DNA of 12,646 nt from a bacterium (lineage in GTDB: Bacteria; BMS3Abin14), in contig JARGFV010000077.1 in the NCBI GenBank assembly GCA_029210545.1, positions 1 to 12,646 of the forward strand, written 5' to 3'. Positions 2,424 to 9,050 of this stretch are shown one piece after another. The stretch's first letter is position 1. Each line of letters opens with the position of its first letter. A program made the translations under genes and the position numbers. Under the pieces are notes generated by a model, which saw nothing but the letters and a program-made list of their open reading frames with translations, did no database searches and had not been told where the DNA came from.

Positions 2424-4097
2424 ATGAGGAGGAGGTTACCGTTCCACTTGTTCGCAGCCCTGATAGCTGCCATTGTGCCGGTGTGGCTGTGCCTGTCGAG
2501 CATTACAGCCCGCGCTGAGCCCTTGCCCGCCCATTCGCCTTTCCACTTTTCGTCCATCAATAACTCCAATGGAACGCTGACAACAGGTCAGGGCTGCATC
2601 GTCTCAACCAGGGGGATCTCTATTGTCCCCGTGTCGATGCTCGAAGAAGCAGATCATGCCACCGTGGTTCTCCCCGGCGGAAAGGCGATCCCCATCGAGG
2701 AGGTCGAAGCGGTGGACGAAGCGAGCGGCCTTGCCCGGATACGTCTGGGAAGGGCGGCACCGGGGTCCGCCGGAAAACTTTCGGTCAAGCCCGCACCTGC
2801 GGAGGGTCAGGGGATCACCGTGATCACGGTCGGCAGTGATGGTTCTACGGTTCGTACGCAGTGCACCGTAAAGTCGATCAGGGAGATCCCGTATTTGTCC
2901 GGTTTTTATCACCTGGAAGCCTCCCAGGCGCTTCCGCCTCCGGGAGGGGGGATCTATGCGGAAGATGGAGCCCTTGTAGCGGTTGTGATCCGGGGGGCCG
3001 ATGGTCAGGGTGCGGGTGTCGTGGTCTCCACCGAGGTCATCGTAAGGGTTGTCGGAATGAGATCCAGCAAAGAGAGTCTCGGGCAATGGTCCTCCGGTCA
3101 CCCCGCAAGGTGGTCCAAGGGCACTGTTTCCCGATACGTGGAGGCGCAAACGGAGATATGGTCCGGTCGCCATGGCAGGGCTATCGAGCTTCTCGAGCCG
3201 GCCCTTGGATCTGCCGGAACCATGGATGGCGCTGTGGCGGCCCTCCTGGGAGAATCTTACCTGGCCATGAACCTGCTGCCCGAGACGATCGTAGCGCTCA
3301 AGAGCGCTATTGAAAACGGTGTGGTGACGTGCCGGATATACCAGCATCTGGCCTGGGCTTACATGGAGACAGGTCAATATGACGAGGCAAAAAAGTTCAG
3401 CGAAAAGGTGATCACAGAGCAGGGCGAAAAACCCATAGGATACCTTCTTCTCGCCCGCCTCAGCAACCTGCGGGGAGACCACGCAAAGGCTGTTTACGAG
3501 GCCCGGCGGGCGCTTAAACGGCAATCCGATTGCCAATGCGCCCATTTTGAGAGGGGTATCGCCTACCTGAGCCAGGGTCGATTCGAATCTGCCATCGAAT
3601 CGCTCCGTATGGCGACCGCCCTTGACCCCACCGATGCGGACGCGCTTCGATTCCTGGGTTACGCGTACCTGAGAAATGGGAGCCTGTCGGAAGCTTTTGA
3701 TGCGCTCAGGGCGGCGCTGGAACTGAATCCGGAGATGGCCGATGCCTGGAAGGACCTGGGAGAGGCCTGTTCCAGGGCCAACCGGGGCGAGGAGGCTCTT
3801 GAGGCCTATCGACAGGCGATATGCGCCGATCCGGAGGACCAGGGTGCCTACTATCGGCTGGCTTCCGAGTGCATACGGCAGGGACATTACCAAGAGGCCA
3901 TCCTCATCCTCGACCAGGGACTGGGCAGCTGTGGAGACTCCGCCTGGCTCACCTACCAGCTCGGCAAAGCCTACTGCTGCGCCGGCCAGGTGGCCGAGGC
4001 CCGCCATCAGGTGAAACGACTGTCGACCATGAACACCGCACTGGCTGAACAGCTCCACCGGTATATAGAGATTTCCGCCGAGGGTGATGGAGGATGA
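2424..4097 (+). CDS. Exported pseudo-HtrA (trypsin-like) + TPR repeat protein
   Basis: The 557-residue protein starts with a signal peptide (RRR, hydrophobic 9-27, likely cut near ARA-EP at 31). Residues about 45-210 follow the HtrA/DegP serine-protease pattern: GQGCIVSTRG, ATVVLPGG, then GGGIYAEDGALVAVVI. The triad appears lost. The His site reads Ser71 (VPVSML), the Asp site Gly102 (SGLARI) and the GNSGGP serine loop PPPGGG (173-176). Residues 240-545 are about eight TPRs, including YLSQGRFESAIESLRMATAL and NGSLSEAFDALRAALELNP. It is most likely a periplasmic scaffold. A paralogue lies 230 bp downstream. Start: ATG with AAAGGGGG 10 nt upstream. The TPR assignment is firm; the pseudo-protease assignment rests on manual pattern matching. 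Confidence 0.85.
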   Translation: MRRRLPFHLFAALIAAIVPVWLCLSSITARAEPLPAHSPFHFSSINNSNGTLTTGQGCIVSTRGISIVPVSMLEEADHATVVLPGGKAIPIEEVEAVDEASGLARIRLGRAAPGSAGKLSVKPAPAEGQGITVITVGSDGSTVRTQCTVKSIREIPYLSGFYHLEASQALPPPGGGIYAEDGALVAVVIRGADGQGAGVVVSTEVIVRVVGMRSSKESLGQWSSGHPARWSKGTVSRYVEAQTEIWSGRHGRAIELLEPALGSAGTMDGAVAALLGESYLAMNLLPETIVALKSAIENGVVTCRIYQHLAWAYMETGQYDEAKKFSEKVITEQGEKPIGYLLLARLSNLRGDHAKAVYEARRALKRQSDCQCAHFERGIAYLSQGRFESAIESLRMATALDPTDADALRFLGYAYLRNGSLSEAFDALRAALELNPEMADAWKDLGEACSRANRGEEALEAYRQAICADPEDQGAYYRLASECIRQGHYQEAILILDQGLGSCGDSAWLTYQLGKAYCCAGQVAEARHQVKRLSTMNTALAEQLHRYIEISAEGDGG

Positions 4098-4104
4098 TAA
4101 AGCC

Positions 4105-4131
4105 CAGTCACAGCCACAGTCACAGTCTCAG
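4105..4131 (+). repeat. Hexanucleotide tandem repeat, 4.5 copies
   Basis: Units CAGTCA, CAGCCA, CAGTCA, CAGTCT and CAG follow the TPR gene stop at a distance of 8 nt. In one frame the tract encodes alternating Ser-Gln. That short frame (from GTG 4084) has no other protein-like feature, so I treat the tract as non-coding. Confidence 0.75.
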
Positions 4132-4174
4132 CAATCCCGAAATCGGTTGCACCCGGCACAGTCCATAAAACGTT

Positions 4175-4202
4175 TTGAAGCGGGTTGGGTCGCTGTTATA
4201 CT
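4175..4202 (+). promoter_or_regulatory. Sigma-70-type promoter for the second TPR gene
   Basis: TTGAAG (4175-4180) is followed after 16 nt by TATACT (4197-4202). TGT directly before the -10 makes it an extended -10. Transcription would begin near 4209, leaving a leader of about 120 nt to the start at 4328. So the second paralogue can be expressed independently of the first. Confidence 0.6.
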
Positions 4203-4327
4203 GATGGCCAGGAACCAGGCGGGGCGGGTCCGGCCGGGTTCCGTTGATGAGGAAGCAGCCGACACAACCCGCGACATTTGAAAGGCAATCTTCCCTACGC
4301 TGACGCCCGGCCGATCAAAAGGTCCGG

Positions 4328-5704
4328 GTGACGGGACCGTTTCCGATGATGAACGCGCTGACCAGAACACGGGTGACCCTTCTTGTGGCGGCCCTTATCA
4401 TGGCCGTTTCTGCAGGAGATCTGCACGGGAGCCTGGACGGGCCGGGGAGGCTTACCCGCAAGAGGCTCAGTTCGTCGGTGGTCCAGGTGTCCGTGTATGA
4501 TTGGCGGGGGATCTTTGTCCGCCAGGGATGGGGATTTTTCATCAACAAGGAGGGGGAGGTCGTCACGCCACGGAGCCTGCTGGAAGGCGGTTCCTACGTG
4601 GAAGTGACCACGGTCAAAAGGGAAACCTTCATGGTGGACCGGATCCTCGAGGAGGATGTGGAGGGGAACTTCGTGCGCATGGGCCTCGAGTACCCCCCCG
4701 AGCGTTTTGCCTACCTGACGAAATCAGCCCCGGTGCCCGATGTCGGCGACAGGATCCTCATTGGGGGTGGCACAGGCTGTGAGCCGGGCGCTTTTCTGGA
4801 TGGTACCATCGAAGATCTCCGCAAGGTGCCGATGTACGGCTTCCTGATGAAGATCGGTTCCCCGTTTGCCACCGTTGGCAGCCCTGTCTTCAACGAGAGC
4901 GGAGTCATCGTCGGGATCGTCATGTTCAGACTGGAAAACGGCGTCAGCGCCGCCTGGGCGGTTCCGGTGGGAAGGATCTCCAAGGTCATGACCGGGGATG
5001 TGCGGCCGGTGGACCACCTGGCCTGGGCCGAGCGCCGGCATGGCAGCTGGGAAGACACGACGGTGGGCGGTTACATGACGGGATTTGCCTGTTACTGGAC
5101 AGGCCAGTACGCGCGTGCCATTCCAGGGCTTCAGAAAGCCACTGCGGATGAGAGGTTCCGAAAAGAGGCCTTCTTCCTCCTGGGGTGCTGTAACGACGCG
5201 GTTGGGCATTTCAAGGACTCGGCCGCCGCCTACTCCATGGCGGTCAAGCTCGGGGATTCCTCCCACGAGGCCTACATGAAGCTCGCCCGCGCGCTTCTGG
5301 TCGAGGGGGAAAACACCAGGGCTCTCGACGCGGTCTGGGCGGCCGTGAGGTCGCAGCCGAACAGCTACGATGCCTACACTCTTCTGGGGGAGGTCAACAA
5401 TACCCTGGGATTTTACAGGGACGCCCTGGCCGGGGTATACGTGGCCATCAAGATTGACCCCCGAAGGGCGGAAGCCTGGCATCAGCAGGGCATATCTTTC
5501 CGCGGGCAGCAGAGTTATCCGGAGGCCATTTCAGCCCTTAAAAAGGCCATCGAACTTGATCCCGAACTCAAGCGCGCCTATTGGGACCTGGCCTTCACGT
5601 ACTATCGGAGCGGGGACAAACGCTCAGCGGCCGACATATGTTCCGCCCTGGAAAAGATGGACCCGGAACTTTCCCGGCAGCTCATGAGCGAGGTCAACCC
5701 CTGA
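4328..5704 (+). CDS. Exported pseudo-HtrA (trypsin-like) + TPR repeat protein, paralogue 2
   Basis: The product is up to 458 residues with a signal peptide (hydrophobic 16-29). Residues about 45-220 follow the HtrA layout: QGWGFFINKEGEVVTPRSLL, VPDVGDRILIGGG, VGSPVFNESGVIVGIV. The triad appears lost: His is Ser83 (TPRSL), Asp is Asn114 (EGNFVRM) and Ser is Val183 (ATVGSP). Residues 245-450 are about six TPRs, with clear units at ISALKKAIELDPELKRAYWD and ALAGVYVAIKIDPRRAEAWH. Domain order matches the gene at 2424-4097, and both share P-x-S-[ML]-L-E at the lost His, so they look like tandem duplicates that diverged. The GTG at 4328 follows AAAGG by about 5 nt; ATG 4346 or 4349 are alternatives with weaker sites. 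Both leave the signal peptide intact. Confidence 0.84.
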   Translation: MTGPFPMMNALTRTRVTLLVAALIMAVSAGDLHGSLDGPGRLTRKRLSSSVVQVSVYDWRGIFVRQGWGFFINKEGEVVTPRSLLEGGSYVEVTTVKRETFMVDRILEEDVEGNFVRMGLEYPPERFAYLTKSAPVPDVGDRILIGGGTGCEPGAFLDGTIEDLRKVPMYGFLMKIGSPFATVGSPVFNESGVIVGIVMFRLENGVSAAWAVPVGRISKVMTGDVRPVDHLAWAERRHGSWEDTTVGGYMTGFACYWTGQYARAIPGLQKATADERFRKEAFFLLGCCNDAVGHFKDSAAAYSMAVKLGDSSHEAYMKLARALLVEGENTRALDAVWAAVRSQPNSYDAYTLLGEVNNTLGFYRDALAGVYVAIKIDPRRAEAWHQQGISFRGQQSYPEAISALKKAIELDPELKRAYWDLAFTYYRSGDKRSAADICSALEKMDPELSRQLMSEVNP

Positions 5705-5819: not shown

Positions 5820-6395
5820 ATGACACCTTTATCCGGCAACCTTTCTACAGCGGCGATCCTTTCCATTGCAACGGCCCTGGCCATGGACGCTTTCGCTGTG
5901 TCCCTTTCCTGCGGTCTGATCACGCGGAGAGCGGCGACCCCCCGCATCCTTCGCATGCCCCTGGCTTTCGGCTTGTTCCAGGCGGGAATGCTGGCCATCG
6001 GGTGGTCCATGATCACCGGGATTCAGGCAGCCATCGCCGCGGTGGATCACTGGGTGGCTTTTGCCCTCCTGCTCGCGGTGGGCGGGCACATGGGAGTCAG
6101 CGCATTCAGGGGCGAGGTGAAGGGCGAGCGTGACCCCCTGCAGCTCACGGTCCTTTTCGTTCTCGCCCTCGCAACGAGCATCGACGCCTTCGCCGTCGGT
6201 ATGAGCCTGTCCATCGTGCAGGTCCCTGTCTTCACACCGGCCCTTGTAACAGGGGTTGTGACCTTTACACTTTCGTCTGTTGCGGTATACATTGGAAACC
6301 GCACGGGTCCCCTGCTGGGAAGGAGCGCCGAGGCGGCAGGCGGGCTCGTACTCATTGCCATCGGAGTCAGGATACTCATGGACCACATCGGTTAG
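5820..6395 (+). CDS. mntP: Manganese efflux pump MntP
   Basis: The 191-residue, mostly hydrophobic protein has about six membrane segments and the two internal repeats of the MntP (YebN, DUF204) family. The marks are ALAMDAFAVSLSCG (Asp23), FGLFQAGMLAIGW, GGHMGVSAFR, ALATSIDAFAVGMSLS and GGLVLIAIGVRILMDH at the end. MntP exports Mn2+ across the inner membrane and protects against manganese excess. The ATG at 5820 is the only sensible start because an in-frame TGA (5817-5819) abuts it. No Shine-Dalgarno sequence is visible before it. I looked for a yybP-ykoY manganese riboswitch in 5705-5819 and did not find its conserved bases. The PIN-PhoH gene starts 48 nt after the stop and may be co-transcribed. 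Confidence 0.93.
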   Translation: MTPLSGNLSTAAILSIATALAMDAFAVSLSCGLITRRAATPRILRMPLAFGLFQAGMLAIGWSMITGIQAAIAAVDHWVAFALLLAVGGHMGVSAFRGEVKGERDPLQLTVLFVLALATSIDAFAVGMSLSIVQVPVFTPALVTGVVTFTLSSVAVYIGNRTGPLLGRSAEAAGGLVLIAIGVRILMDHIG

Positions 6396-7835: not shown

Positions 7836-8958
7836 TTGCCCAGGAAGAGAGGCCGGTCAGTTATCAGGCGGTATCTGCAACAGATCCTGGTTTTTTGCCT
7901 CGCCCTTTTGGCCGGGTTGCCCGGTCCGGTTGCCTGCGATGAGAGGACAGGCATGGAGGAGAACCTCGAGAAATGGGGTGAGCTGGCACCCATACGGGAC
8001 AGGACCGGGTATCGCTGGCTCCCATCTTCGCCTACGAACCAACTTTCGGGACCGTGTGGGGAGGGGCTTTTTTCTCGACCGGCCGACGGATCCGAGGTTA
8101 TGGATGTTCGCCCGGCTCGCCTTTTCCACCGGCGGAGAGTACAGCACCAAGTTCAACCTCAAGCGGTGGATGGGCGAAGGCGTTTTCTTTGACCTGGACA
8201 TCGAGCTGGACGACTTTGCGCGTCCCTATTACGGGGAGGGGATGGACACGGATGCTTCGGAGAGCATTTTTATTGAGGGGGCGGTGACCAGGGTTCAGTA
8301 CTTTCTGAAGTGCATGAAGAACGGGAAGGTTGTTTTTGGCCCCTTCCTGGACTACCGGGGCGCCGAATTCGAGGGCACCGACGGGACCGATATCGCCCCC
8401 CCCTGAATACGAAGAACGCTTCCTTGGATTCGGTCTGTGCATGTACTACGACGGCCGGAACAATCAACTGAACCCGACAAGGGGCGTTTACGACACCCTT
8501 ACTTTAAAGATCGTGCCCGACTGCCTGACCACCTATGACGGGAGCAGGACCTTTTCCCAGGCTGAGGTAGACCACCGGATCTTCACATCCCCTGTTTCCG
8601 GCCTCGTTCTGGCAGGCCGGCTGGCCCTGGCAGGCAGTTGGGGACGACCCAGCTACCAGCACCGCTACAGCCTCGGGGGGCCCTACGCGCTGAGAGGCTA
8701 CTACACGAACCGCTTCCGGGGGGACAGCTATTATGTCCTCCAGGGAGAGGCGAGGAAGAAGCTGTTCTGGATCTTCAGTGGAGCCCTGTTTGCCGAAGCG
8801 GGAGCGGTCACCGAGGACCGATTCGGAGGGCCCGAGGTCTCTGCCGGGGCCGGCCTGCGCATGACCCTGCCCCCCGATCACATCGCCAAGGCCCGCCTGG
8901 ACTTTGCCTGGGCCGAGGACCAGCCGCTGTTTACTTCCTGTTCGGGGAAACGTTCTGA
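7836..8958 (+). pseudogene. BamA/TamA-type (D15) outer-membrane beta-barrel protein, frame broken 4 times
   Basis: Joining three frames gives one barrel protein of about 374 residues. It has a signal peptide (QILVFCLALLAGLPGPVA), a typical opening (GYRWLPIFAYEPTFGTVWGG), barrel strands, the D15 motif SLGGPYALRGY...RFRGDSYY near 8668-8740 and a terminal strand DQPAVYFLFGETF ending in Phe at 8955. The breaks are a missing base at CCC 8021-8023, one missing T at T6 8068-8073, one extra C in C8 8396-8403 and a missing base at CC 8924-8925. Between them the protein reads well. The TTG at 7836 is the likely start, 12 nt after phoH2, with no clear ribosome site. Barrel-only D15 proteins are outer-membrane pores or assembly factors. 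This is either a recent pseudogene or a sequence-error artefact. Confidence 0.8.
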
Positions 8959-9050
8959 TTCCCCGGTTAAACAGGCGCCTCTTTTCTCCTGACCCCAGAC
9001 CCTCAAGACCAGATCGTGCTATTAAATGCCCCCATTCCCCCATGCACTTT

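Follow-up and report, generated by a model that had tools for sequence, protein, structure and literature searches.

Neighbouring pseudo-HtrA/TPR proteins: a conserved, probably exported pair in which both members lack the catalytic triad

Several HtrA-type domains of bacteria have given up proteolysis, and those of MamO, PflC and RsgI9 were turned into metal-binding, structural and sensing parts, respectively (PMC4794232, PMC12222027, PMC12203970). In MamO of magnetotactic bacteria, a Trypsin_2 domain is no longer proteolytic and has taken on metal binding instead (PMC4794232). PflC, a flagellar medial-disk protein of Campylobacter jejuni, is a periplasmic, triad-less HtrA homologue serving as a scaffold (PMC12222027), and the outer domain of RsgI9 from Clostridium thermocellum was reported to bind cellulose (PMC12203970). 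Triad-intact fusions of HtrA and TPRs (Trypsin_2 plus TPR; for example L038, L099, L100, L101, L103, L110) were found in several other families. Bacterial pseudo-HtrAs and widespread triad-intact HtrA-TPR fusions are already known; new is a conserved neighbouring pair in which both proteins are dead, each carries TPRs and relatives show intermediates. No paper on a tandem pseudo-HtrA/TPR pair was found in the open-access literature.

The window, meaning the whole stretch of DNA that was analysed (12,646 nucleotides), is the entire contig C77, and the genome has a size of 2.72 Mb and a completeness of 97.5%. The two proteins, named P1 and P2 here, have the following features.

2424..4097, + strand: P1, pseudo-HtrA/TPR protein, probably exported, 557 aa (open reading frame; orthologues in G003, G008 and G002)
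2424..2516, + strand: signal-peptide-like start of P1 (MRRR, hydrophobic stretch, ARA followed by E; by reading of the sequence)
2520..3068, + strand: HtrA-like fold domain of P1, approximately residues 33-215 (AlphaFold; DegS-like, Z 17.3)
2634..2636, + strand: Ser71 of P1, catalytic His site (register with triad-intact relatives)
2727..2729, + strand: Gly102 of P1, catalytic Asp site (register with triad-intact relatives)
2940..2942, + strand: Pro173 of P1, catalytic Ser site (register with relatives; Pro in 4/4 P1 orthologues)
3159..4094, + strand: TPR region of P1 (Pfam TPR models)
4328..5704, + strand: P2, pseudo-HtrA/TPR protein, probably exported, 458 aa from GTG 4328 (open reading frame)
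4466..5008, + strand: HtrA-like fold domain of P2, approximately residues 47-227 (Pfam Trypsin_2; AlphaFold; DegP, Z 22.6)
4574..4576, + strand: Ser83 of P2, catalytic His site (register with triad-intact relatives)
4667..4669, + strand: Asn114 of P2, catalytic Asp site (register with triad-intact relatives)
4874..4876, + strand: Val183 of P2, catalytic Ser site (register with triad-intact relatives)
5096..5701, + strand: TPR region of P2 (Pfam TPR models)

The likely start of P2 is ATG 4346, giving 452 aa, as its closest orthologue, in G003, starts at the aligned Met (MMN). Judged by their N-termini, both proteins are probably exported. Several TPR motifs were found above the Pfam cut-off in P1 as well as in P2 (TPR_2, E 7.5e-28 and 2.3e-15, respectively). 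Trypsin_2 (PF13365) was matched by P2 with 27.7 bits at a cut-off of 27.6, a margin of 0.1 bit, and no Pfam protease family was among the 25 of 31 families listed for P1. The two proteins align with each other over 388 aa at 23% identity (E 6e-21). Using alignments with 16 relatives as input, AlphaFold yielded models of the N-domains with a pLDDT of 91.2 and a pTM of 0.87 for P1 and of 89.3 and 0.88 for P2, which are not independent of HtrA homology, since triad-intact HtrAs were among the input alignments. For both models Foldseek placed the S1C domain of RsgI9 on top, followed by DegS, DegP, Deg1 and others. Comparison with DegS/DegP-type chains by VIA-align gave Z 17.3 over 165 residues at 2.9 A for P1 and Z 22.6 over 188 residues at 2.7 A for P2. 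According to these predictions, both N-domains have the HtrA-type double beta-barrel fold. The architecture put forward for both proteins in the preliminary description (signal-peptide-like start, HtrA-like region, TPRs) agrees with the open reading frames, the Pfam TPRs and the predicted folds; its proposal of a trypsin/HtrA fold likewise held, as confident models matching DegS/DegP speak against a fold that is not trypsin-like. The PDZ domain that usually follows the protease domain in HtrA is absent from P1 and P2, and their C-terminal parts match TPR models.

The triad sites were placed in register with L038 (NWHVLQG, EGDI, GSSGSP) and more than 20 other triad-keeping relatives. At the positions of His, Asp and Ser, P1 reads Ser71/Gly102/Pro173 and P2 Ser83/Asn114/Val183. 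All of these sites are as first described except the third one of P1, for which Gly had been claimed and Pro173 (PPPGGG) was found. Orthologues in G003 and G008 have also lost all three triad residues, with open frames: P2 orthologues read S/N/V in G003 and S/N/A in G008, and in all P1 orthologues S or C is followed by G and then P. No intact triad at shifted positions was seen among the homologues; those in the clade of the pair are without a full triad, and in more distant HtrA-TPR proteins the triad occupies its usual positions. In G001 the copy located between DUF429 and PhoH has kept His (TWGHLL) and Ser (ATSGSP) and has Gly at the Asp site, and its two dispersed copies have Glu/Gly/Ala and Glu/Gly/Arg at the three sites. 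Triad loss was probably stepwise, since in this fourth genus the single copy at the locus is without Asp only. The preliminary description had also taken P-x-S-[ML]-L-E for a shared replacement of the His motif. This did not hold, as the motif does not extend beyond the two proteins of the window: in P1 orthologues the stretch is VSMCTLEG, VSVSTLEG or VPICAIER, and four of them have S, C, S and C where His would be. Its L-E part looks inherited, because HVLEG, HVIEG or HVVEG stands there in other HtrA-type proteins.

Compared with the described systems, P1 and P2 share the domain order of the triad-intact HtrA-TPR fusions, in which, by sequence, the His, Asp and Ser missing from the pair are all present. 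Outside the family, L038 (G012) is the closest relative that was found; like the pair, it has the W-x7-W-x7-Y junction leading into its first TPR. MamO resembles the pair in having a second trypsin-like protein in the same cluster, but it differs by a Thr at the nucleophile site, metal-binding histidines, a TauE domain and the partner MamE; in P1/P2, unlike MamO, both members are dead and TPRs follow. PflC has an Asn at the Asp site like P2, but carries two PDZ domains and no TPRs, where P1 and P2 have TPRs instead of PDZ. The S1C domain of RsgI9 (PDB 7sjy) is the best solved match both by sequence profile (E 4e-33) and by Foldseek. Its sites read His, Asp and Thr in the alignment, and unlike P1/P2 it belongs to a fusion with an NTF2-like domain and with an anti-sigma factor. 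A cytoplasmic anti-sigma domain of the RsgI type with a membrane helix before the S1C domain is absent from P1 and P2, which have only a short signal-peptide-like stretch. A further Trypsin_2-TPR protein, from a different family (L104:1375-2709, genome G158), reads Arg/Asp/Leu and resembles the pair in its degenerate sites, but has kept Asp; His and Ser were lost separately there, which suggests repeated loss in the Trypsin_2-TPR architecture. With the present pair, the short list of bacterial HtrA pseudoproteases gains a case with intermediates, from intact (in another family) via loss of Asp only (G001) to full loss.

Twelve genomes of a single family constituted the collection sample of the phylum. 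An alignment-based contig scan detected three relatives, CP070698, CP070719 and CP070682 (MAG isolates bin582, bin47 and bin676); the scan with a single sequence yielded none. The syntenic pair of P1 and P2 occurs in three genera of this only sampled family, with the order DUF429, P1, P2, PhoH in G000, G003 and also G008, where DUF429 is shortened. In the latter genome, DUF429 beside the pair (L033:5501-5821) consists of the last 106 residues and abuts an open reading frame of 562 aa that looks RecN-like by eye. In G002 the pair is present too, but P1 contains an in-frame stop and P2 is interrupted at a run of N. The two pieces of this P2 are on opposite strands and separated by 165 kb (252.6 kb and 418.1 kb; L088 near 3655-4005, L089 near 8135-8720). 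A true inversion within P2 was considered and not used as evidence; the broken ends abut runs of N, and a scaffold misjoin or masking is likelier. The start of P2 in G005 lies at a contig edge, and the interval from there to the Sel1 gene gave no match to P1. Sel1 adjoins PhoH in G004, G009 and G006, and DUF429, P1 and P2 are absent. In the phylogenetic tree all ten ingroup sequences split from the outgroups (100/100). The copy at the G001 locus fell with P2 (100/98), and the dispersed G001 copies fell with P1 (99/99). This grouping places the duplication before the split of these genera; either P1 may have come to lie beside P2 later, or the dispersed copies may have left the locus. Of the claim of a duplicated pair, the homology of P1 and P2 stands, and a recent tandem event is rejected, as P1 and P2 group with different G001 copies. 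No second tandem pair elsewhere was among the matches listed for the P1-type profile (193 genomes) and the P2-type profile (386 genomes), both of which are samples only.

Conservation of the two proteins was found to be unequal. Between orthologues, the dead domain of P2 shows 66-76% identity and its TPRs 57-64%; the corresponding values for P1 are 30-47% and 39-52%, on a scale where PhoH reaches 87-91%. Invariant positions of P2 were enriched in the former active-site loops (41/53 versus 73/128 in the rest of the domain, Fisher p 0.011), the loops being hand-chosen and one of them after viewing the alignment; omitting that loop the counts are 27/35 versus 87/146. Conserved loops at the former cleft of P2 are PRSLLEGG, EDVEGNF, GGGxGCEPGAFLDG and SPFA. 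The unequal conservation speaks for retention of a surface in P2 and, in P1, mainly of the TPR coil. A role for the cleft of P1 is doubtful, because its domain is weakly conserved.

We lean towards the reading that P1 and P2 descend from an HtrA-TPR protease, are exported and no longer proteolytic, and serve together in the cell envelope for binding or as a scaffold. Such an ancestor would have lost its triad in steps, Asp first, with His and Ser gone in the paired forms. Selection would have preserved the former active-site face of P2 for the binding of a peptide or another ligand, and the TPR coil of P2 may bind a second partner. In P1 the fold would serve mainly as a platform for the better conserved TPR array, and both proteins, if exported, may act jointly at the envelope. 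The role as "sensor or scaffold" in the preliminary description is plausible, and the maintenance of the pair across several genera suggests a reuse of former protease domains for binding. As the two dead partners have diverged, with the active-site face kept in one and mainly the TPRs in the other, reuse of the cleft is directly testable. A more specific form, a paired recognition device of the envelope in which a peptide or damage signal is received by the dead cleft of P2 and both TPR coils relay it to, or hold, a common partner, we regard as unlikely.

Alternatively, P1 and P2 might regulate or decoy active HtrAs, either by forming hetero-oligomers with the intact HtrAs of the cell or by presenting substrates to them. 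HtrAs work as trimers and larger cages, and LbcA is a TPR-type lipoprotein. The window genome encodes three HtrA-like proteins with intact triads (L001-L003), and LbcA is reported to activate the periplasmic protease CtpA (PMC8764530). A genetic link to an active HtrA is absent, however, and we consider this reading rather doubtful. Binding of metal by the former protease domains, with the TPRs organising an assembly, would follow the precedent of MamO (PMC4794232), but is quite improbable: the P2 alignment is without a conserved His pair, its conserved candidates being Cys151 and acidic residues, the window is without magnetosome genes, and the MamO model (NCBIfam NF040961) is absent from the 18 matches of P2 (E up to 0.01) and from the 25 of 31 listed for P1. 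Matches of the TPRs to MamA were not counted for this reading, since they lie far under the cut-off and are shared with other TPR proteins. The low identity of the P1 N-domain between orthologues and the in-frame stop in G002 might indicate decaying remnants, yet three genomes have open frames and third codon positions differ most (P2: 0.23/0.18/0.55). G002 is also a poor witness for decay because a run of N interrupts its P2. Decay is very improbable, and the earlier view that the changes are not random decay stands with open frames and proteins conserved across genera. An unusual catalysis kept by P1 and/or P2, for instance via Ser83 or a dyad, might be read from the His and Ser of the G001 copy, but is very improbable given that the window proteins are without His, Asp and Ser at the respective sites and that all P1 orthologues have Pro at the nucleophile position.

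The local gene order is Sel1-repeat protein (- strand), DUF429, P1, P2, MntP, PIN-PhoH protein and Omp85-like protein. Co-expression of P1 and P2 is putative only, because a gap of approximately 240 bp with a weak promoter-like site lies between them. A functional link to the neighbours DUF429, MntP, PhoH and Omp85-like was sought and none was found; the set varies between genomes. Upstream of P1, at 1827-2123 of the window, three inverted repeats were observed, one of them perfect (GTCCCCTTCGGGGA / TCCCCGAAGGGGAC, spacing 44 nt), with no matches in an Rfam search. The gene between P2 and PhoH (5820-6395) encodes a manganese efflux protein of the MntP type; it is present in the window genome only, no match having been found in the G003, G008 and G001 stretches. 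The Omp85-like gene (7836-8992) is split across reading frames and contains at least one, probably two frameshifts, real or from assembly, as the frames differ along the gene; its version in G008 is a single frame of 335 aa (L033:11157-12164).
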